From the NCBI GenBank assembly GCA_937871435.1, contig CALMQM010000101.1, positions 62,001-126,000 of the forward strand: 64,000 bases of DNA, written 5' to 3'. A program made the translations under genes and the position numbers. Source of the DNA: an uncultured Bacteroidota bacterium (GTDB lineage Bacteria; Bacteroidota; Bacteroidia; AKYH767-A; 2013-40CM-41-45). The notes beneath the pieces are model-generated. The model ran no database searches. It was not told the origin of the DNA and saw only the letters and a list, made by a program, of their open reading frames with translations. Positions 51,370 through 63,229 of the stretch are shown in pieces. Positions within the stretch are counted from its first letter, which is position 1, and every line of letters begins with the position of its first letter.

Positions 51370-51930
51370 TCAACTTTCTTTGTAAAGGATACTCAGATTG
51401 TGTAAGTCAAGTGAACCACAACCTTCGCAGTTACTGAATGAAGATCCTGTTGTTCCACGCAATTCTACTGAACCGCTACCAAGCACTGCTGATTTCACTT
51501 TTAATGCACGAACATCCAGATTTACAACAGCACCTTTGTCTACTTTAATGCTAAGTATGTCTGTGTTGATAAAACCATGCGCTTCAACACTTGTATTGCC
51601 ACGAACATCAAGCAAGGTCAGATTATCCACGTTAATTGTGATTTCAGTCCGTTCACCCTTCACATCATGATTGTTTGTCTGAAGAATATACAACGTATCA
51701 TTTTTCAGATAAGTAGTCATATTCATAATCTGGTCCTCAGTTCCGGTAACTGTAAGTCCGGGAGTTTCATCCTGAACCAGCGTAATCTTTGCATTACCTT
51801 CCACAACAATGGAATGATACGCTTCGGAAGTACGGGTTTCAGTTATTTTTTTTGTGGCGCCTGAAGCCTGACTAAATACAGGAACCAAAAATCCTGTTAA
51901 TACAGCGAGAATAAGTTTTACTTGTTTCAT
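51370..51930 (-). CDS. DUF2807 (head GIN) adhesin-like protein
   Basis: This 186-aa exported protein has a signal peptide ending FSQASG and a DUF2807 head GIN domain, a right-handed beta-helix of short repeating strands (YHSIVVEGNAKITLVQ, LTVTGTEDQI, VDNLTLLDVRGNTSVEA, VKSAVLGSGSVELRG). Such domains are periplasmic or surface-exposed in Bacteroidota and of unknown function. It is a single-gene unit with a candidate -7 box about 85 bases upstream and a strong terminator. Confidence 0.88.
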   Translation of the reverse strand: MKQVKLILAVLTGFLVPVFSQASGATKKITETRTSEAYHSIVVEGNAKITLVQDETPGLTVTGTEDQIMNMTTYLKNDTLYILQTNNHDVKGERTEITINVDNLTLLDVRGNTSVEAHGFINTDILSIKVDKGAVVNLDVRALKVKSAVLGSGSVELRGTTGSSFSNCEGCGSLDLHNLSILYKES

Positions 51931-52021: not shown

Positions 52022-52152
52022 CACTGGACCGGGGGCTATTGTTTTTTTTAATTTATTACCCAACTGTAGATTTTGACGGATGAAGTGTTGAGATTACTAC
52101 AGCCTTAACATTTATTTAGCATATTTCTTCTCCATTTAACTCTTTTTAGCAA

Positions 52153-52842
52153 TCAGACACGAACTGTAACAACTTGATTCAAATTGTCGTGCAGTTGCTT
52201 GTATTCGTTTTCAGAGAGAATTTCTTCCGACATTTTTAATAATGCTGTAAATGCCGGAGCCGGAGCAGTACGTTGAATCTGAGACATCATCTGTATTCTT
52301 TCTGCAGGCTCAAGAGATGGAATCATATAACGTGCAATAAGTATGGAATCGTTCGGAGCCAGACTTGAAAGAATTGCAGCTGTCATTCCCTTCAACTCTT
52401 CATCATTACACAGCTCATAGAAAAGGTTTGTCATCACAATCTCTTCCATTTGCATATGCATGAGGTAACCGCTGATAAAACTGTTAATGCTGTAGTAAAA
52501 ATTCCAATAACAATCTTTTCGGGTTTCAGCTTCAGCATCCAACAAGGCATTCATTTGGCTTTTCAAACCTGACAATTCCAAATGAATCTGCTCATGTTCT
52601 TCTTCATTGTGTCTGGTGCAACCCGGACGTTTGGATTCCAGCAACGGTAAAGAATAAGTATCTTCTTTGTGCCCGTGCATGTCCAGTAAATACAAAAGTT
52701 CATCAAATTGTCTGGATAAAGCGCGAAGGGTTTCATTGCTTTCTATATCTACTCTTCCTGTAGCATAAGAAAAATCAAATAGTGCTTTGCGAAGTGCTTT
52801 GTGTATGTTCCGGTACACATCCGGACGATTTACATAGGTCAT
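52153..52842 (-). CDS. Hemerythrin-like HHE domain protein
   Basis: This is a 229-aa soluble protein. The first 145 residues carry a spaced His/Glu set suited to a four-helix di-iron site: His14, His56 and His58 with Glu60 (MHGHKED), His78, His83 and His87 (RHNEEEHEQIH), His129 and Glu133/134 (YLMHMQMEE). This resembles hemerythrin HHE proteins that bind O2 or NO or sense oxidation. The C-terminal 80 residues are a second helical segment without such ligands. Iron binding is inferred. No partner gene is close. Confidence 0.75.
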   Translation of the reverse strand: MTYVNRPDVYRNIHKALRKALFDFSYATGRVDIESNETLRALSRQFDELLYLLDMHGHKEDTYSLPLLESKRPGCTRHNEEEHEQIHLELSGLKSQMNALLDAEAETRKDCYWNFYYSINSFISGYLMHMQMEEIVMTNLFYELCNDEELKGMTAAILSSLAPNDSILIARYMIPSLEPAERIQMMSQIQRTAPAPAFTALLKMSEEILSENEYKQLHDNLNQVVTVRV

Positions 52843-53132
52843 GAGAATTGATTTTTATAGGATAAATTTTTCGCCACAAAAATCATTGATGCAAATCGAA
52901 TAAAAACAAAATTCAACCTGAAACGAAGAAATAAATCGCTGAAGTGCAGAAAAATTGAAAGGAAGTCTTAATCCAGAAATTTATACAAGCCAAATAATTA
53001 TCTCTTCCTTAAAAAAATGTTCAACGAGACAGGTTAAATTTTACTTAACAAATAAATTCAAATCAGAGCGCACTGAATTGTTCTCTGAGAAAAATCAACA
53101 ATCACATTTAAATTTTTCTAAACATCCGAATT
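52843..53132. other. AT-rich intergenic region without visible gene
   Basis: These 290 bases lie upstream of the hemerythrin-like gene and downstream of the LytTR regulator, both on the minus strand. I see no credible reading frame, terminator hairpin or complete promoter box. Confidence 0.5.
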
Positions 53133-53933
53133 TCATTCACCCAACCAGCTTTTGAAATCCCCTGCCCGTTCGCGACTGACAATAACCTCTTCTTCCGGCT
53201 TCGGCCTGACAGACACTTTTAGTTTTCCATTGAACCAGGTATGTATTTCATCAATACAAATAGTATTCAGAATGAACTGTCGGTTCGCTCTGAAAAAATA
53301 TTTAGGGTCCAACTGCTGCTCCAACTCGTCCAATGTATAGTCCATGGCAAACTTGTGATTGTCCTTTGTCCGCATGAACACAATTTTATCCTCTGTAAAA
53401 AAGTAACTGATAAATTCCGCAGCAATTGGCATCAATCGTTGCCCGGATTTTACAAGGAAACGATTTCGGTAACGCTCGCAATGTTGTTGAGCAACCAAAG
53501 TTTCTACCAGTTTCTCAATACTCTGTTGCTGCAAACCCGAGCCAATCCCTGCACCCTGACTTTGTGTCCGCAATGTTTTGAATTTATCCAGTGAAGCTTT
53601 TAACTCCTCCGGTTTTATCGGCTTCAACAAATAATCAATACTGTTTACTTTAAACGCCTTCAGTGCAAATTCATCGTATGCAGTAGTAAATATCACAGGG
53701 CATTTTACATCAATCCGGGAGAAAATCTCAAAGCTTTGTCCATCGGCAAGTTCGATATCCATAAAGATGAGATCCGGACACCCATTTTGTTTTAACCATT
53801 CAACGGAAGACTCAATACTATCTGTCATTCCGATGCAACACATATCAGGATCTATTTCAAATAACATTTTCTTGAGCTTCTTTGCTGCAAGATCTTCGTC
53901 TTCGACCAGAAGGAGATTGAGGTTGTTATGCAT
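53133..53933 (-). CDS. LytTR-type response regulator
   Basis: This is a 266-aa transcription regulator. The receiver domain (about 5-120) has the acidic pair VEDED, phospho-acceptor Asp59 (IFMDIEL) and the conserved Lys in LLKPIKPEE. A linker of about 40 residues leads to a LytTR DNA-binding domain (about 160-266: FLVKSGQRLMPI, DYTLDELEQQLDPKYFFRANRQFILN). It overlaps the kinase gene upstream by 8 bases, so the two are made together. It is the only regulator for the two LytS kinases of this unit. Targets probably include its own operon, but this is not shown by sequence. Confidence 0.94.
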   Translation of the reverse strand: MHNNLNLLLVEDEDLAAKKLKKMLFEIDPDMCCIGMTDSIESSVEWLKQNGCPDLIFMDIELADGQSFEIFSRIDVKCPVIFTTAYDEFALKAFKVNSIDYLLKPIKPEELKASLDKFKTLRTQSQGAGIGSGLQQQSIEKLVETLVAQQHCERYRNRFLVKSGQRLMPIAAEFISYFFTEDKIVFMRTKDNHKFAMDYTLDELEQQLDPKYFFRANRQFILNTICIDEIHTWFNGKLKVSVRPKPEEEVIVSRERAGDFKSWLGE

Positions 53934-55056
53934 TTTTCAGTTGTATTGGTGAATTAGGAATGATTGCAGGATCTTTCTTCAAAGAAAGACCGGTGCTAAA
54001 AGGATCATAAGGCATTTGTGGACTCATCAGCGGAAGTTTCACCTGAAAATTTTCTTTTGTAGTTTGTATTATGACTTCCGATTGATTCAACAATTTATAT
54101 TTAGATGTAATATTCGCCAATCCCATTCCACTGGAGGGTACCGATTGAGCTTTTTTCTGAAGATTGTTGTCGACCATCAGATTACCCAATGCGTCTGTAT
54201 GAATCCGGATAATCAAAGGACGTGTAGAAGATACCACGTTGTGCTTTACTGCATTCTCCACAAGAATTTGTAACGTCAAAGGAGGAATCAGAAACTCCCG
54301 AAAACTCGGGAGTACTTCTACTACCAGTTTTACTCCATTTCCAAATCTTGTTTGCAAGAGAAAATAATATGCCTGAATAAATTCCAGTTCTGCATTGAGT
54401 GTGGTCAGTTCCTTTTCATTAGTTTGTAATAAATATCTGTATACCCTGCTCAATTCAGCAATAAAATGTACGGCTTTATCTTTATCTTCTTCAACGAGTG
54501 AACTCAGTGTGTTCAGGCTATTGAATAAAAAGTGAGGATTCACCTGGTTCTTAAGCGATTCAAACTGGCTTTGCAAATTTGCCTTTCTCAACTGCTCCAT
54601 TTCAGAAAATGATTTTTTCCACTGATGGAAAAAATACAGCGACTCATAGATTCCGGTAATGATGAGAGCATAAAACATATTCATTCCGAAACTGTACAGG
54701 TATTCAAATATGACAGGATGATCAGAAGGAGTTTCACCCATGTTGTAGAAATCAACTCCCGAAATAAATTCAACTTTCAATAGTGATATGGCAAGTGTTG
54801 CAGCAGTAACATAAATGCCGAGGTTGATGATCCGCTTGCGTGTATTTTGAATCCCGGGAAATTTTTTCCGAACCAGTAAAATAATAAATCGTGTTACCTC
54901 CCAGGATATAATCACATATGCAGTACTGAGCAAAAACACCTTCAAAAATGGAATGTGCTTGATGTGAACCAAATCCAGGTAGAAGAAAATATTAAGAAAT
55001 AAATTCAGGACGGTAATTCCGCCTATTCTAAGCCATTTATCGTTCAATTTCTCCAT
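53926..55056 (-). CDS. LytS-type sensor histidine kinase, first paralogue
   Basis: This is a 376-aa kinase. Four membrane helices (about 12-32, 38-62, 76-95, 118-142) form a compact input domain without a sizeable extracellular loop. The His_kinase block has NPHFLFNSLNTL with His175, and the ATPase lobe has PPLTLQILVENAVKHN and SGMGLANI. It is very similar, without gaps over the kinase block, to the next gene upstream. It starts 2 bases after that gene's stop and overlaps the regulator by 8 bases. It has an extra C-terminal tail of about 25 residues (SLKKDPAIIPNSPIQ). The signal is unknown. Confidence 0.93.
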   Translation of the reverse strand: MEKLNDKWLRIGGITVLNLFLNIFFYLDLVHIKHIPFLKVFLLSTAYVIISWEVTRFIILLVRKKFPGIQNTRKRIINLGIYVTAATLAISLLKVEFISGVDFYNMGETPSDHPVIFEYLYSFGMNMFYALIITGIYESLYFFHQWKKSFSEMEQLRKANLQSQFESLKNQVNPHFLFNSLNTLSSLVEEDKDKAVHFIAELSRVYRYLLQTNEKELTTLNAELEFIQAYYFLLQTRFGNGVKLVVEVLPSFREFLIPPLTLQILVENAVKHNVVSSTRPLIIRIHTDALGNLMVDNNLQKKAQSVPSSGMGLANITSKYKLLNQSEVIIQTTKENFQVKLPLMSPQMPYDPFSTGLSLKKDPAIIPNSPIQLKNA

Positions 55057-55058
55057 CG

Positions 55059-56105
55059 TCAGTTTGCAATTAATGGAAGCACAACTTTGAAATGCTCCCG
55101 TGATTCATTGATAATCACCTCCGGTTGATTCAACAACCTGTATTTCGCGGCAATATTTGCCAATCCCATTTTACTCGATGGAACCGATTGAATTTTTTTC
55201 TGGAGATTATTCACCACACACAAATTGTTGGTTTCATCAGTATATACATGAATATGCAAAGGTGTCGACAAAGACACTTTGTTGTGCTTCACAGCGTTTT
55301 CAAGTAAGATCTGCAACGTAAGTGGCGGAATGTTCTGACAGAAGCAATCTTTGCTGATATTCATTTCCAGCTTCACGCCTTCTCCAAAACGTGTTTGAAG
55401 AAGATAAAAATATGCTTTTACAAATTGCACTTCGTTTTCAAGCGATGTAAGTTCACATTCATTGTTTTGCAACAAGTAACGGTACACCCTAGATAATTCA
55501 TCCACGAAGATCAACGCTTTTTTCTTGTCTTCTTCAATCAATGAAGAAAGTGTATTTAAGCTATTGAACAGAAAATGCGGATTCACCTGGTTCTTCAGAG
55601 AGTCGAGCTGACTTTGCAAATTGACTTTTTTCAATTCCTCCGCTTCCTGAAACGAAGATCTCCATTTTCTGAAAAAATAAATTGCTTCGTATGTTCCTCC
55701 CACCATTGTAACAAATATCATATCCAAAACGCAATCATGAACCATCTCCGCAACTGTAATGGAATGTTTCCAAACTCCTGCAGCATCCAGTATATAAGAA
55801 GTAGACATTGAAATGATTGTAGTGACGATGATAAATCCGATCACCGAAAACAAAATGCGTTTACCCGTTTGAGACACATCCGGAAATTTCCTGCGTACAC
55901 GGAATAAGACCTGGCGGTTAACTTCCCAGAGAATTATAGTCAGGATGAGGGAAATTAATAATGTCGTCCACACACTCACATGATACACCGCGCATTCCTC
56001 CCTATAATAGATGTAGTTTGCCAACACAGCCACCACAGGAATGCCAATCATCCTGAATAAGGAATCATTCATGTAATCTCTGTTATGTGCGGATGAATTT
56101 GTCAT
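55059..56105 (-). CDS. LytS-type sensor histidine kinase, second paralogue
   Basis: This kinase is 348 aa if started at Met 56105 (MTNSSAHN), one base after the stop of the membrane protein. A longer frame to 56153 would overlap that gene by 47 bases and is less likely; Met 56072 is another option. It has four membrane helices, then the same block as its neighbour: NPHFLFNSLNTL (His177), PPLTLQILLENAVKHN, KMGLANI. The ATPase region keeps the N-box Asn. Both copies look functional. It probably arose by tandem duplication. Confidence 0.92.
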   Translation of the reverse strand: MTNSSAHNRDYMNDSLFRMIGIPVVAVLANYIYYREECAVYHVSVWTTLLISLILTIILWEVNRQVLFRVRRKFPDVSQTGKRILFSVIGFIIVTTIISMSTSYILDAAGVWKHSITVAEMVHDCVLDMIFVTMVGGTYEAIYFFRKWRSSFQEAEELKKVNLQSQLDSLKNQVNPHFLFNSLNTLSSLIEEDKKKALIFVDELSRVYRYLLQNNECELTSLENEVQFVKAYFYLLQTRFGEGVKLEMNISKDCFCQNIPPLTLQILLENAVKHNKVSLSTPLHIHVYTDETNNLCVVNNLQKKIQSVPSSKMGLANIAAKYRLLNQPEVIINESREHFKVVLPLIAN

Positions 56106-56106
56106 C

Positions 56107-56829
56107 TCAGGCTGAAAGAACTGTTTTACGAATTGAAAATACGTGCATAGCAAATGCTACAGGTACAACAAACGACGGTAACCACACAAAAGGAAAATAT
56201 GCAATCATACTGTTTGGCGGACCATCTGTAAATACACGGAAAGGCAATGGTGTTGACAAGATCGCCACTATTACTATGTTAAGCAATAAGATCAATCCTG
56301 CGACATTCCAGGCATACAACCAAAATTTGGATTTGAGTTTTCCACGTTTCACAGCAACGGCAAGTATTAACGCGCTGATACCAACAAGAACATCAAAATT
56401 TCTTCCTTCGAATGTCATTTGTTTTCCAATAATATCATTCAGAAATAATCCCCAGAGTATTAATTCCATCACAATTCGGAACGACTGAATGTTGATTAAC
56501 CAGTGAGCAGGCACGTGCAAAAGGAATTTACTGAAGTTTTTAGAAAAAGCCAGGAGCAAAATTCCTGCTACAGGAGGAACGATCAGAACAAGAAAATGAG
56601 GGGGCAATGCCGACCAATTATCCAGAAAATGCAATGAAGACAATTGTCTTGTTACAGCCAACCAGATTAACAAAACTGCACCAACCCGAAGCGCGTATTT
56701 TCTGCTCTTCAGATTATCATCTCCCATCTTTTGTCTTACAGATTTCACTGCAGCTACTATTAATGCAAACAACACAAAAGTTAGTACAACAAAAATAATT
56801 TCGAGAAATGTTGGGATCTGAGGTTGCAT
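56107..56829 (-). CDS. Seven-helix membrane protein of unknown function
   Basis: This is a 240-aa integral membrane protein with seven hydrophobic helices and short loops, and no motif I recognise. It lies 9 bases after the TonB receptor stop and 1 base before the first LytS kinase, so it is almost certainly in the same transcript. By context it may be a sensor partner or transport component. Function is not assignable from sequence. Confidence 0.7.
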   Translation of the reverse strand: MQPQIPTFLEIIFVVLTFVLFALIVAAVKSVRQKMGDDNLKSRKYALRVGAVLLIWLAVTRQLSSLHFLDNWSALPPHFLVLIVPPVAGILLLAFSKNFSKFLLHVPAHWLINIQSFRIVMELILWGLFLNDIIGKQMTFEGRNFDVLVGISALILAVAVKRGKLKSKFWLYAWNVAGLILLLNIVIVAILSTPLPFRVFTDGPPNSMIAYFPFVWLPSFVVPVAFAMHVFSIRKTVLSA

Positions 56830-56838
56830 GAGTTGAAA

Positions 56839-59226
56839 TTAAAAAGTTAATCTATACTGAGGAATCGGGAAGAAACCAATCTGGTATTCTGTGATTGTAC
56901 GGCCGGTTTTTACATCAAAATGTTCCTGCCAGATATTTTTAGTATTAAACACATTATCGAAATCAACAGAAAACTCATGTGTTGATTTCTTCTTATTTAT
57001 TGTATACCCAACTTTCAAATCCGTTCTGAAATAGTCCTTTCTTCTTTTTTCATACGCATGCGCTTCATCGTAGCGAGTCTCCCTGTATATCGCTGATTCC
57101 ACGAGATCAATAGGAAGATAGCGTTTCCCGCCGGCATAAGTGGTCTTGAGATTCAGCGCAAATACATTTTTCCCTTTTACTTTCCATTCTTTTCCTCCAA
57201 GTAGGTTTAAAGTAAAATTGCCATTGAAGGCTGTATTTCTTTCTTTGCCATCGCTGCCGGTGTATTTAGACTCGTACAAAGATCCGGTAAACAGATAATA
57301 ATAACCATGACTGTAAAATTTCTCTACAGTAATTTCAAATCCGTAATTTTTACCTGTGCCGGCATTCTGCAAACTATCAACTCGTCCGATTCCAAAATCA
57401 GCCCCTTCATTTAATATCGAATACCATGTCGGGCGACTTTCAACAGGAACATTGTACAAATCCTGAAAATACGTTTCAATTTTTAACCGCATATCTTTTC
57501 CAAACGACTGATCGAAAGCCAGTACAAACTGCTTACTCTTTGTCATCTCAAGGTTACGGTTTGTCTCAATATAGCTTCCATCCGGCAGATAGGTTCTGAC
57601 CAGATAAGCGTACATCGGTTGAAGCTGACTGTGCAAACCTGCTCCAGCACTGATGGTTTGGCCTTCTTTTATTTCCCATCGAATTCCTGCACGGGGTTCA
57701 ATCGCATAGGTTTTGTTCAACTCAAATTCCTGTGCATGAATTCCTGCAATCAACGCTAATCTGTCTGTAAATTTATGTTGTAGCTGAGCAAATGCCTGAA
57801 TTAAATAGCTCCCGCTTTTGAAATTACTGTATTCTTCCCAATGATCATATTCATAACCGCTGTCGAGATAGGTGTATTCATATCTGTTTACAGTGAAACC
57901 CATTTTTAAATAATCCCTGCTCGAAAATTTCTTATTCCAGCTGTAATCCAAAGTGTATTTCTGTTGATTAGAATTATTCCTATAATATGGAACTGGAGAA
58001 TTGTCAACAACAGAAATGGAATCTATCCGGTATTTTTCTCCGGCTGTCGACACAGAGAGATTCATTTTTGAATACGTCGAGGAATTGAAAAAGTAAGTAT
58101 GCTGCAAACCGATTACTCCCATGTTGTTTCCAAAATATCCGTCTTGTCTTCTTTCACCATCATATAAATTCGTCTGCGTTGTATCCTTTTCTTTGTCGAG
58201 TACTTCAACATAACTTTTCCCTCCAATGCCATAGACGGAAAACTTACCTGCCTTTTTAGTAGGAACATTTACTTTAAAAGAAATATCCTGATATTCCGGT
58301 ACAGCTGTTCCTGTTCCAAAATTAATTCCCAATGCTTTGAATACACCAAGTGTTGAGTAACGGTAATTGATCAGATAAGAAGCTCCTCCTTTTTTTCCAA
58401 TAGGACCTTCTGCTCCCAGTTCGAAACCATTGAATCCAACCTGACCGAGAAATTCCATTTTCTCATTATTTCCTGATCGCATCTGCAAATCAAAAACTCC
58501 GGCAAGCGCGTTTCCATATTCCGCAGGAAATGCTCCTGTAAGAAAATCAGATTTATCCAGTAAATTATTATTTAGCATACTCACCGGTCCGCCTGTTGTG
58601 CCGAGCGAACCAAAATGATTTGGATTCGGAATTTCCATTCCATTCAATCGCCACAACACACCCAAGGGAGAATTACCACGAATGATAATATCATTTCTTG
58701 CATCACTCGTACTACTCACACCTGCATAATTCGCAGCCATACGGGATGGATCATTCAATCCTCCCGCATAACGAGATGTTTCTTCCACTGTAAAGGATCG
58801 CGCGCTTACAGTAGTCATTTCGTTGTTGGTTTTATCTTTCGCTCTTTCCGCTACAATAGTAATTTCATTTCCCTGTACTACGGATTGCTCCAACTCCAGA
58901 TTTATAATCACTTCCTTTCCGGAAGTTACCACAACGGAAACTGTAATTTCTTTGTAACCCACCATACTTACTTTCAACATTTGTCTGCCCAGTGGAACAG
59001 ATTCAAGACGAAAATTACCATCTACATCACAGGCAGATCCTTTAAACTCTGTACTATCAATAAGCCGGACTGCAGCGCCAATCAATGGGTCATGACTTGC
59101 CTTATCTACAACACTTCCACGTATGGTTTGCGTTGGCACTTGAGCTTGAACGGAGAAATTAAAAAGCGATAAGCAGAAAATAATAGAGATGACTTGAAAT
59201 TGCTTCAAGGTACCGGAGACAACCAT
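56839..59226 (-). CDS. TonB-dependent receptor with carboxypeptidase-regulatory-like domain
   Basis: This is a 795-aa outer-membrane receptor from Met 59226 (MVVSGTLKQFQVISIIF), which gives a signal peptide ending SVQAQ; the frame extends to 59295 without a better start. The mature N-terminus is a CarboxypepD_reg-like fold (TIRGSVVDKASHDPLIGAAVRL ... SMVGYKEITVSV). The plug has IIIRGNSPLGVLWRLNGMEIPNP and FPAEYGNALAGVFDLQMRSG. The remainder is a 22-strand-type barrel ending IPQYRLTF. There is no STN signalling domain and no SusD partner. The ligand is unknown. It heads the unit with the 7-helix protein, two LytS kinases and LytTR regulator. Confidence 0.93.
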   Translation of the reverse strand: MVVSGTLKQFQVISIIFCLSLFNFSVQAQVPTQTIRGSVVDKASHDPLIGAAVRLIDSTEFKGSACDVDGNFRLESVPLGRQMLKVSMVGYKEITVSVVVTSGKEVIINLELEQSVVQGNEITIVAERAKDKTNNEMTTVSARSFTVEETSRYAGGLNDPSRMAANYAGVSSTSDARNDIIIRGNSPLGVLWRLNGMEIPNPNHFGSLGTTGGPVSMLNNNLLDKSDFLTGAFPAEYGNALAGVFDLQMRSGNNEKMEFLGQVGFNGFELGAEGPIGKKGGASYLINYRYSTLGVFKALGINFGTGTAVPEYQDISFKVNVPTKKAGKFSVYGIGGKSYVEVLDKEKDTTQTNLYDGERRQDGYFGNNMGVIGLQHTYFFNSSTYSKMNLSVSTAGEKYRIDSISVVDNSPVPYYRNNSNQQKYTLDYSWNKKFSSRDYLKMGFTVNRYEYTYLDSGYEYDHWEEYSNFKSGSYLIQAFAQLQHKFTDRLALIAGIHAQEFELNKTYAIEPRAGIRWEIKEGQTISAGAGLHSQLQPMYAYLVRTYLPDGSYIETNRNLEMTKSKQFVLAFDQSFGKDMRLKIETYFQDLYNVPVESRPTWYSILNEGADFGIGRVDSLQNAGTGKNYGFEITVEKFYSHGYYYLFTGSLYESKYTGSDGKERNTAFNGNFTLNLLGGKEWKVKGKNVFALNLKTTYAGGKRYLPIDLVESAIYRETRYDEAHAYEKRRKDYFRTDLKVGYTINKKKSTHEFSVDFDNVFNTKNIWQEHFDVKTGRTITEYQIGFFPIPQYRLTF

Positions 59227-59407
59227 AACATTGAATTTAAGGCAAATTACGATCAAAATACAATACTGAACTACCAATTTGCCCCGAAACGTCATAAAAG
59301 CAGGTTGAATCGTAGCGAGGCAAGGTCAAATGCTTAACAATGCATAAAACACTATTAAATCAGTTAAGTATTCAATATTATTGCTTTTGGATTAAGCATT
59401 CATTGTT

Positions 59408-60993: not shown

Positions 60994-62523
60994 ATGACAA
61001 AAAATTCCCGCATCTTAATCGTTATAGTGATTGTCGGAATTGCGCTGGCAGGAATTATCGGTGCTCAGATTTTTTGGTCAGTGCAGGCTTACAAACTCAA
61101 TGAAAAGCAATTTGCCAATGACGTGAACGAAGCAATGAAACGGACGGTGGAAGAAATCAACGACAAAATTACCTTCTTCGAAATCATTTCTAAAGTAAGA
61201 ATGAAACCGGGCGAAGGATTTTATCTGTTGAAACAGAAATGGAAAAACGAACAATTCCTTCCGAACTCTGAATCACCACCCGACACTATTCCTCTTTACT
61301 ACACGAAGCCTACGGATAAATGGCCGTTTGAATGGACGAATGTGATGTTCAGTAGGGCAACTAAAGTGAGTTGGCGCGTGCAAATTGAGTACATCTGGGA
61401 TACGGTAGGGCAAAAAAACTCCCACTCTTCTATGATTGATAAAATCACGCTCGACAACTACAAGGAGCTTTTCGCTGAAGGAGATTCTATCATACGACGG
61501 TATCCTCCGAGCAGAATGGATTCTGTACTGAGAAAACACTTACTGAATGCGGGAGTGAATGAAGGTTTTGGTTTTGGTTATTATAGTGAAGAAGGACACC
61601 GTGTCATGGGATCCAAAAATATCCGGGATACCGCTCTTATTGCACTGAGTCCTTTCAAAGTAAAAATTGAACCGACAAAATATTTCGCAAAACCATTTCA
61701 ACTCGTAGTTGTTTTTGATGATTACACGAAATTTATTTTCTCGAGGATACTGAAGTTGCTGATTACTTCCGCCATTATTATTTTTATACTTAGTATTTCC
61801 TTCTATGTATTTGTCCGGATCATCCTTCATCAAAGGAGATTGTCGATGCTGAAAAATGATTTCATCAATAACCTGACGCATGAATTTAAAACACCCCTCA
61901 CGAATATTTCTCTTGTAGTAGAAAATATGTCTGAGAACAGGAAGCTTCCGGAAGAAAAACAGGAAAAGCTTATACATATCATCGGTCAGGAAGCAGAACG
62001 ATTGAGTGAAAACATCGAACGTATTCTACAAATTGCACGTTATGAAAAAGATTCTTTCCATTTGCAAAAAGATAAAATTGATCTTCACCAATTGATTTCA
62101 AAAGCCATTTCAGCTTTTGATTCTATCCGGAACGAAAAAAATATTCAATTTGAATATCATCCGGAGGCGGTAAATCCGGTAGTATTGGCAGATGAAACAC
62201 ATGTATTCAATGTGCTCTACAATCTGATCGACAACGCTATTAAATATGCATCCGAAAATCCTAAAATTATTCTTAGTACAAAAGATGTAAAAGATGGACT
62301 GCAAATCAGTATCCGGGACAATGGAATTGGTATCGCATCCTCGGATCAGAAAAAAATATTTGAAAAATTTTACCGTGTCCCAACAGGAAATGTACATGAT
62401 GTAAAAGGATTTGGGTTAGGATTACATTATGTGAAACAGGTTATTGAAGCACACCATGGAAGTATTCGGGTGGTGAGCGAACAAGGTATTGGCAGTACAT
62501 TTGAATTTATTATCCCCAGATAA
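60994..62523 (+). CDS. Two-component sensor histidine kinase
   Basis: This is a 509-aa transmembrane kinase. Helices at about 7-29 and 251-278 enclose a 220-residue periplasmic sensor region with no recognised fold. The dimerisation/His domain has LTHEFKTPLTNISLV with His296. The ATPase has N-box NLIDNAIKYA, G1 DNGIGIAS, F-box IFEKFYR and G2 GFGLGLHYVK. No HAMP domain is seen. The stop is one base before the ATG of its response regulator, so they form an operon, probably with the S41 gene. Confidence 0.94.
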   Translation: MTKNSRILIVIVIVGIALAGIIGAQIFWSVQAYKLNEKQFANDVNEAMKRTVEEINDKITFFEIISKVRMKPGEGFYLLKQKWKNEQFLPNSESPPDTIPLYYTKPTDKWPFEWTNVMFSRATKVSWRVQIEYIWDTVGQKNSHSSMIDKITLDNYKELFAEGDSIIRRYPPSRMDSVLRKHLLNAGVNEGFGFGYYSEEGHRVMGSKNIRDTALIALSPFKVKIEPTKYFAKPFQLVVVFDDYTKFIFSRILKLLITSAIIIFILSISFYVFVRIILHQRRLSMLKNDFINNLTHEFKTPLTNISLVVENMSENRKLPEEKQEKLIHIIGQEAERLSENIERILQIARYEKDSFHLQKDKIDLHQLISKAISAFDSIRNEKNIQFEYHPEAVNPVVLADETHVFNVLYNLIDNAIKYASENPKIILSTKDVKDGLQISIRDNGIGIASSDQKKIFEKFYRVPTGNVHDVKGFGLGLHYVKQVIEAHHGSIRVVSEQGIGSTFEFIIPR

Positions 62524-62524
62524 A

Positions 62525-63229
62525 ATGAAAGAACCTGCAGGCATCCGGATTCTGCTCGTCGAGGACGATGGCAATATGCGTTACATCTTACAGGAAAATC
62601 TGGTCATGAAAGGCTATGCTCCTGTTCCGGCCGGAGATGGCGAGGAAGGACTTGCCCGTGCGAAAGCTGAAAAATTCGGGCTATATATTATTGATGTCAT
62701 GCTGCCAAAAATGGATGGCTTCCAGCTTGCAACTAAAATCCGGACTTTTGATGACAGTACACCGATCATATTTCTAACGTCTCGTTCATCTGAACCGGAT
62801 CGTTTGCAGGGTTTCAAAATAGGCTGCGATGATTACATCACCAAGCCATTCAGTCTGATGGAACTGGATTACAGAATTCAGGCGATTTTAAAGAGAACCT
62901 ATAAAACACCGGGCAATGAAGAACCTCCTGTTTTCCGAATCGGTATTTTTGAGTTCGATTACTCTCTTCGTATTCTCCGTGCGCCCGGACAAAGCGAAAA
63001 AAAACTGACAAGGAAAGAAGGAGAATTGTTACGCTTATTCTGTGAAAAGAAAAATGCGCTTATCAACAGAAATTTTATCATGAATCATGTGTGGGGTAAT
63101 GACGATTATTTTATTTCAAAGAGTATGGAAGTATATCTCACCAGAATTCGACATTTGCTGAAAGCAGACCCGAACCTGGAGATCGTCAATGTTTACGGTA
63201 CCGGTTACCAGCTTTTGGAAAAAAAATAA
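62525..63229 (+). CDS. OmpR-family response regulator
   Basis: This is a 234-aa DNA-binding regulator from ATG 62525 (MKEPAGIRILLVEDDG). The in-frame TTG at 62489 lies inside the kinase gene. The receiver domain (5-120) has the acidic pair EDD, phospho-acceptor Asp57 and Lys in YITKPF. A winged-helix Trans_reg_C domain (about 135-234) has LTRKEGELLRLFCEKKNALINR and SKSMEVYLTRIRHLLK, followed by VYGTGYQLL. It partners the kinase one base upstream. Confidence 0.96.
   Translation: MKEPAGIRILLVEDDGNMRYILQENLVMKGYAPVPAGDGEEGLARAKAEKFGLYIIDVMLPKMDGFQLATKIRTFDDSTPIIFLTSRSSEPDRLQGFKIGCDDYITKPFSLMELDYRIQAILKRTYKTPGNEEPPVFRIGIFEFDYSLRILRAPGQSEKKLTRKEGELLRLFCEKKNALINRNFIMNHVWGNDDYFISKSMEVYLTRIRHLLKADPNLEIVNVYGTGYQLLEKK

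Follow-up and report, generated by a model that had tools for sequence, protein, structure and literature searches.

Five adjacent genes on the minus strand of the window, the 64,000-nucleotide stretch of DNA from an uncultured Bacteroidota bacterium analysed here, probably form a self-regulated sensory import operon in which the regulator acts on its own genes and ligand import is sensed by the kinases. From receptor to regulator the genes are spaced by 9, 1 and 2 bases and then overlap by 8, exactly as a first-pass annotation of the sequence had given. The unit (gene calls were mechanical throughout) begins with a TonB-dependent receptor of 795 amino acids (56839..59226) that carries Pfam CarbopepD_reg_2 and Plug domains plus a barrel, and whose orthologues lie at 63-72% within the family. 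The receptor had been read as lacking an STN domain, and the Pfam scan agrees, with no STN (PF07660) match at E ≤ 0.1. An alternative ATG at 59295 could lengthen the receptor, but both the -7 element predicted at 59243-59249 and the distances in relatives speak for a start at 59226. A PDB search with the receptor matched the small carboxypeptidase-like domain only and so gave no clue to the ligand.

The receptor is followed by a 7-helix membrane protein of 240 amino acids with no Pfam match (56107..56829), two LytS-type sensor histidine kinases of 348 (kinase 1, 55059..56105) and 376 amino acids (kinase 2, 53926..55056), and a 266-residue response regulator with Pfam Response_reg and LytTR domains (53133..53933). 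Receptor, kinase and regulator genes thus share one cluster in which a PF06580 His_kinase protein adjoins a Response_reg-LytTR regulator. Kinase 2 is 50% identical to kinase 1, and both translations contain NPHFLFN, ENAVKHN and GLANI motifs with intact H, N and G boxes. Hydropathy places membrane segments in both kinases such that a periplasmic domain would not fit, and neither Pfam nor hydropathy revealed one; 5TM-LYT and GAF sensor domains are likewise absent, Pfam giving His_kinase alone. The kinases and regulator are separate proteins and not hybrids, the operon holds no SusD-like gene, and no ECF sigma or FecR genes occur among the genes read and scanned around it. On the plus strand, the translations at 60994-63229 read as another sensor kinase-response regulator pair, classical in appearance, that adjoins an S41 peptidase gene.

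The receptor-kinase-regulator core of this unit recurs. A class-wide search with kinase 1 covered 395 genomes, and in the 78 kinase loci that we read, taken as the top hits to kinase 1 rather than sampled at random, a receptor of the window family lies directly upstream in 33, followed in every one of the 33 by a LytTR regulator, with gaps of -41 to 190. Four further loci have one reading frame between receptor and kinase. Kinase-linked receptors occur in 15 family-level groups besides the window's own; with one or two receptors of the family in a genome of about 4000 genes, we estimate that chance adjacency would yield far less than one case. Receptor-kinase-regulator operons of the window kind are widespread in Bacteroidota, and the tie between receptor and kinases proposed in the first-pass annotation is strengthened both by this recurrence and by a predicted LytTR-type site before the window receptor. 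A survey for the exact five-gene order, as that annotation had suggested, found no second copy, the window being the sole intact example seen. An order confined to this contig had been named there as grounds for refutation; these grounds apply to the full order and fail for the receptor-kinase-regulator core. The annotation knew of no named system with this composition, and in the open-access literature searched we found no published description of a TonB receptor-LytS-LytTR unit, only passing co-mentions of LytTR proteins and TonB receptors.

Several of the loci carry additional genes. At L281 (1783-3945) and L289 (7750-10029), receptors with CarbopepD_reg and Plug domains stand upstream of a TPR protein and a kinase-regulator pair; these receptors are outside the window family, being unmatched by the window receptor query, and in L281 the receptor and the TPR gene are preceded by LytTR-type sites scoring 25.6 and 18 bits, respectively. 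In three receptor-kinase-regulator operons a flavodoxin-fold NAD(P)H oxidoreductase precedes or follows the receptor (L231:2933-3544, L260:5429-6007, L283:7129-7707), which hints at a redox link. In L243, L249 and L262 the kinase-regulator pair shares an operon with a small ABA4-like membrane protein and with a membrane protein of 264-294 amino acids, whose L249 member was scanned and has no Pfam match; sites of 22.2 bits in L243 and 19.9 bits in L262 precede this operon.

To place the pairing in an evolutionary setting we compared kinase and receptor trees. Both window kinases fall in a clade of 39 with 100% support whose remaining 37 members are not linked to a receptor, while all 40 receptor-linked kinases from other genomes lie on the opposite side of the kinase tree. 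The receptor tree puts the window receptor together with four receptors that have no kinase (L193, L195, L194 and L050), and the kinase-linked receptors come next. Since the clade of the window kinases is not otherwise paired with this receptor, a different LytS-LytTR cassette has become attached to the same receptor family. The receptor-kinase pairing thus arose again independently in the window, a recurrence that speaks for a functional tie between the two. There is also a second way in which this receptor family is wired. A paralogous receptor in the window's own genome (L205, G000:C25:82000-96160) lies behind an ECF sigma factor, a FecR anti-sigma factor and an STN-domain protein, and these three genes are also upstream of the receptor in L207, L209, L216 and L217. 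Thus, one receptor family is connected either to LytS-LytTR or to ECF sigma/FecR/STN, even within one genome. The STN protein at the ECF/FecR loci is a separate protein of about 600 amino acids, and a GIN-like protein is also present in L205, L207 and L217.

Upstream of the kinase-linked receptors we found direct repeats with a period of 21 in 18 of 40 cases, compared with 0-9 for other periods between 12 and 39. The repeat reads TACAAYTCAT and occurs twice at a 21-bp distance, roughly 90 bp upstream of the start. LytTR sites are usually 9-11 bases long and separated by 11-13, which the spacing of these repeats fits, and the LytTR regulator YpdB binds GGCATTTCAT direct repeats (PMC4847170), which the TACAAYTCAT repeats resemble. 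A matrix built from the repeats before kinase-linked receptors, with the window left out of training, scored at least 13 bits upstream of 28 of the 39 linked receptors, compared with 1 of the 26 that are unlinked (Fisher 2e-8). That single unlinked case, L266, has a kinase-regulator pair four genes further downstream. When whole families were left out, period 21 still ranked first of 29 in 27 of 39 cases (1.3 expected). Kinase loci lacking a receptor gave a weaker signal, with the motif before 9 of 87 leader genes and 8 of 328 others (p=0.003).

The three highest-scoring period-21 places on either strand of the 64-kb window, at 59314, 52089 and 52948, belong to the receptor, GIN and hemerythrin genes, respectively, each lying on the coding strand of its gene and no more than about 160 bp upstream. 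The best of them, TACGATTCAA-N11-GACGTTTCGG (59284..59314, minus strand), is a predicted LytTR site 88 bp before the receptor ATG; the candidate site TGCACTTCAG-N11-TTCGTTTCAG (52918..52948, minus strand) precedes the gene for a hemerythrin HHE-domain protein (Pfam; 52153..52842, minus strand), and AACACTTCAT-N11-TACAGTTGGG (52059..52089, minus strand) precedes that for a GIN-domain protein (Pfam DUF2807; 51370..51930, minus strand). Each of these predicted pairs consists of two direct repeats of 9-11 bases, 11-13 apart, upstream of its presumed target. Of the 29 periods compared, 21 comes out on top at each of the three sites, which it does not do at any of six control starts. A simulated 64-kb sequence contains 0.08, 0.15 and 0.5 places as strong as the three sites, and some other periods reach equally high scores elsewhere in the window, so that it is location, and not score alone, that carries weight. 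The receptor site reaches 17.3 bits, and most relatives' sites are stronger at 20-26 bits; the window regulator goes with another kinase clade and may for that reason prefer a site unlike the matrix. Across its own genome the motif pattern gave seven matches against two for a reversed control. Most of the other matches lie inside reading frames, and we therefore claim no wider regulon.

Promoter geometry, which played no part in finding the sites, is shared between the window and its relatives. In the relatives a TTTG begins at offset 66-69, counted from where the first repeat starts, with 28 occurrences in 28 rows compared with a mean of 3.2 in windows of the same width. The window receptor has a predicted -7 element, TAATTTG (59243..59249, minus strand), whose TTTG stands at offset 68, the commonest value in relatives; the corresponding offsets are 68 for hemerythrin and 72 for GIN, where TAAATTTG occupies offsets 68-75. 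Kinase operons of the window's own clade show 70 (L211), 68 (L213) and 68 (L220), and a wider set of receptor-less or leader-gene sites has TTTG at 66-70 in 8 of 17. Since the top three matrix places lie upstream of the receptor, hemerythrin and GIN genes, the regulator most likely activates its own operon together with these two neighbors, as judged from the DNA. The position of the repeats upstream of the -7 element suggests activation rather than repression, although repression could act through the same repeats.

Three genomes of the same family hold partial versions of the locus at the same chromosomal place, with neighbors in common with the window. G010 has receptor-GIN-DUF2461-SerS, G003 has receptor-DUF2461-SerS, and G006 has kinase-regulator-GIN-DUF2461-TPR-SerS with a split kinase frame. 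In G006 a GIN gene comes after the regulator, in G010 after the receptor; that of G006 has a TTTG at offset 69 with degenerate repeats. Neither G010 nor G003 has a regulator, and no LytTR-type site was found before their receptors. A search of five genomes from the family or the order returned no relative of the hemerythrin gene. In G006 the kinase is divided between two overlapping reading frames (L214:8943-10074) beside a regulator 73% identical to that of the window, possibly through decay or assembly error.

The 7-helix protein is modeled by AlphaFold2 as seven long helices with a mean pLDDT of 97. No Pfam or NCBIfam match was obtained for it or its family, and its sequence profile matched nothing in the PDB; Foldseek against the PDB returned nothing at E ≤ 0.001, and the best VIA-align Z of 7.8, to helical bundles, is in the range of unrelated helical models. 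As a single query against genome contigs the sequence found nothing, and an alignment-based query found relatives: within the order 12 of 42 genomes have the family, as do 37 of the 395 genomes sampled across the phylum, and the genome collection holds it at 584 or more places. Most of these places are in Bacteroidota, and Ignavibacteria, Acidobacteria and other groups contribute some. The relatives usually stand as lone genes, and nearly all lie outside any receptor/kinase operon. Among 74 codirectional upstream neighbors, 16 are AraC-type HTH, 10 cyclic-nucleotide-binding (Crp/Fnr type), 4 LytTR and 2 MarR proteins, a pattern that would be the usual look of regulated outputs. Conserved residues (loops 131-145 and 192-215; R118, E122 and H229) are predicted from loop charge, in sequence and model, to face the periplasm; such invariant residues, together with the frequent AraC or Crp-type neighbors, suggest that the protein works as an enzyme or transporter and is subject to stress or catabolite control.

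These observations bear on how a signal might cross between receptor and kinases. The first-pass annotation had information pass through either the imported ligand or the 7-helix protein. That the 7-helix protein must carry the signal is at odds with its mostly solitary relatives and with at least 33 receptor-kinase-regulator operons that have no such protein. The module can do without it, and the role of an output or accessory suits it better than that of a signal relay. A narrower proposal, that it is a direct sensor or inhibitor partner of the kinases relaying the presence of imported ligand, draws on the analogy with membrane proteins of LytTR regulatory systems and on the position of the gene between receptor and kinases. 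Three operon-linked members were found, in the window, in L050 of G004 (receptor-7TM) and in L051 of G037 (7TM-HK-RR), and they group together with weak support (90/6; 96/85 for window plus L050). Other polytopic proteins also directly precede kinases of the same family in L243, L249, L262 and L293, but a strong excess of polytopic membrane genes before kinases was not upheld: the excess is small (5 of 16 compared with 16 of 192) and comes partly from one clade. As most operons of this kind do without such a protein, and its family otherwise stands alone or behind AraC, Crp/Fnr and MarR regulators in the manner of outputs, we consider a direct partnership unlikely.

A different reading would make the kinases sensors of a general envelope or redox condition, with receptor, hemerythrin and GIN proteins as outputs and no feedback from transport. 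It would suit kinases that have no periplasmic domain, a predicted site shared with the hemerythrin gene, the flavodoxin-like oxidoreductases in relatives' operons and the kinase-regulator pairs of the window kinase clade that occur without any receptor. Independent, repeated pairing with one receptor family, and the pairing with other receptors in L281 and L289, are nevertheless more than a shared output needs, and we regard this reading as rather unlikely, if a serious one. That the five genes are neighbors by chance, or a unit in decay whose tight spacing is incidental, might be argued from an exact order found nowhere else and from relatives that hold parts of it at the same place; the recurrence of the core operon and the shared predicted sites and promoter geometry make this very improbable.

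We therefore return to the self-regulated import operon, for which we propose a ligand loop and a 7-helix role that reach beyond the gene order, recurrence, candidate sites and promoter geometry read from the DNA. The LytTR regulator would be phosphorylated by one or both LytS-type membrane kinases and would then bind the predicted direct-repeat pair upstream of the -7 element, activating the receptor, 7-helix, kinase and regulator genes as well as those for hemerythrin and GIN. The receptor would import its ligand, and the kinases would respond, in or at the cytoplasmic membrane, either to this ligand or to some effect of its entry, closing a positive loop like those of PfeS/PfeR-PfeA or YpdAB-YhjX. 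The 7-helix protein would be a regulated accessory with conserved residues facing the periplasm and not an obligatory relay.

Control of the Pseudomonas aeruginosa enterobactin receptor PfeA by the PfeS/PfeR two-component system involves no STN step. This dedicated pairing of a TonB-dependent receptor with a two-component system is precedent for the principle, in that PfeS is activated by ferri-enterobactin only after import through the receptor (PMC8001512). There, as proposed for the window, the imported periplasmic ligand activates the kinase and induces the receptor; the window differs in its LytS-type kinase without a periplasmic domain and its LytTR regulator, and in adding a second kinase and the 7-helix protein. 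In E. coli, the LytS/LytTR system BtsS/BtsR controls the transporter gene btsT, and YpdA and BtsS contain 5TM-LYT and GAF domains, which the window kinases lack. YpdA/YpdB is similarly a LytS-type kinase and LytTR regulator set over a transporter gene, yhjX, which it induces in response to extracellular pyruvate (PMC4847170). The predicted window target, unlike those of YpdAB and BtsSR, is an outer-membrane receptor in the same operon. LytTR Regulatory Systems, with 9-base repeats 12 bp apart and an autoregulated operon (PMC6193735), likewise unite a membrane protein and a LytTR regulator in one autoregulated unit (a prediction for the window), but the window regulator carries a receiver domain and is encoded with kinases, whereas those systems pair a LytTR regulator lacking that domain with a non-kinase membrane inhibitor. 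TonB-dependent cell-surface signaling also couples regulation to a receptor, yet the window operon has no STN domain, sigma factor or FecR; relative to SusCD loci under hybrid two-component control, it has neither a SusD partner nor a hybrid kinase-regulator.

Tentatively, and as a possibility on which we place less than even weight, receptor-LytS-LytTR operons may constitute an undescribed, widespread class of Bacteroidota sensory import systems, in which membrane-embedded kinases would monitor transport through one receptor family. That family would have been combined time and again with kinases of different lineages, and in some lineages with different membrane proteins as well, ECF sigma/FecR/STN being its other connection. 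We can now predict the binding site, promoter layout and regulon of a receptor-linked two-component system found in at least 16 family-level groups, the window's own included, and this recurrence, together with those predictions, makes the ligand and STN-free signaling across two membranes directly testable. One receptor family on two unrelated signaling machineries is a natural experiment in how import receptors acquire regulation.
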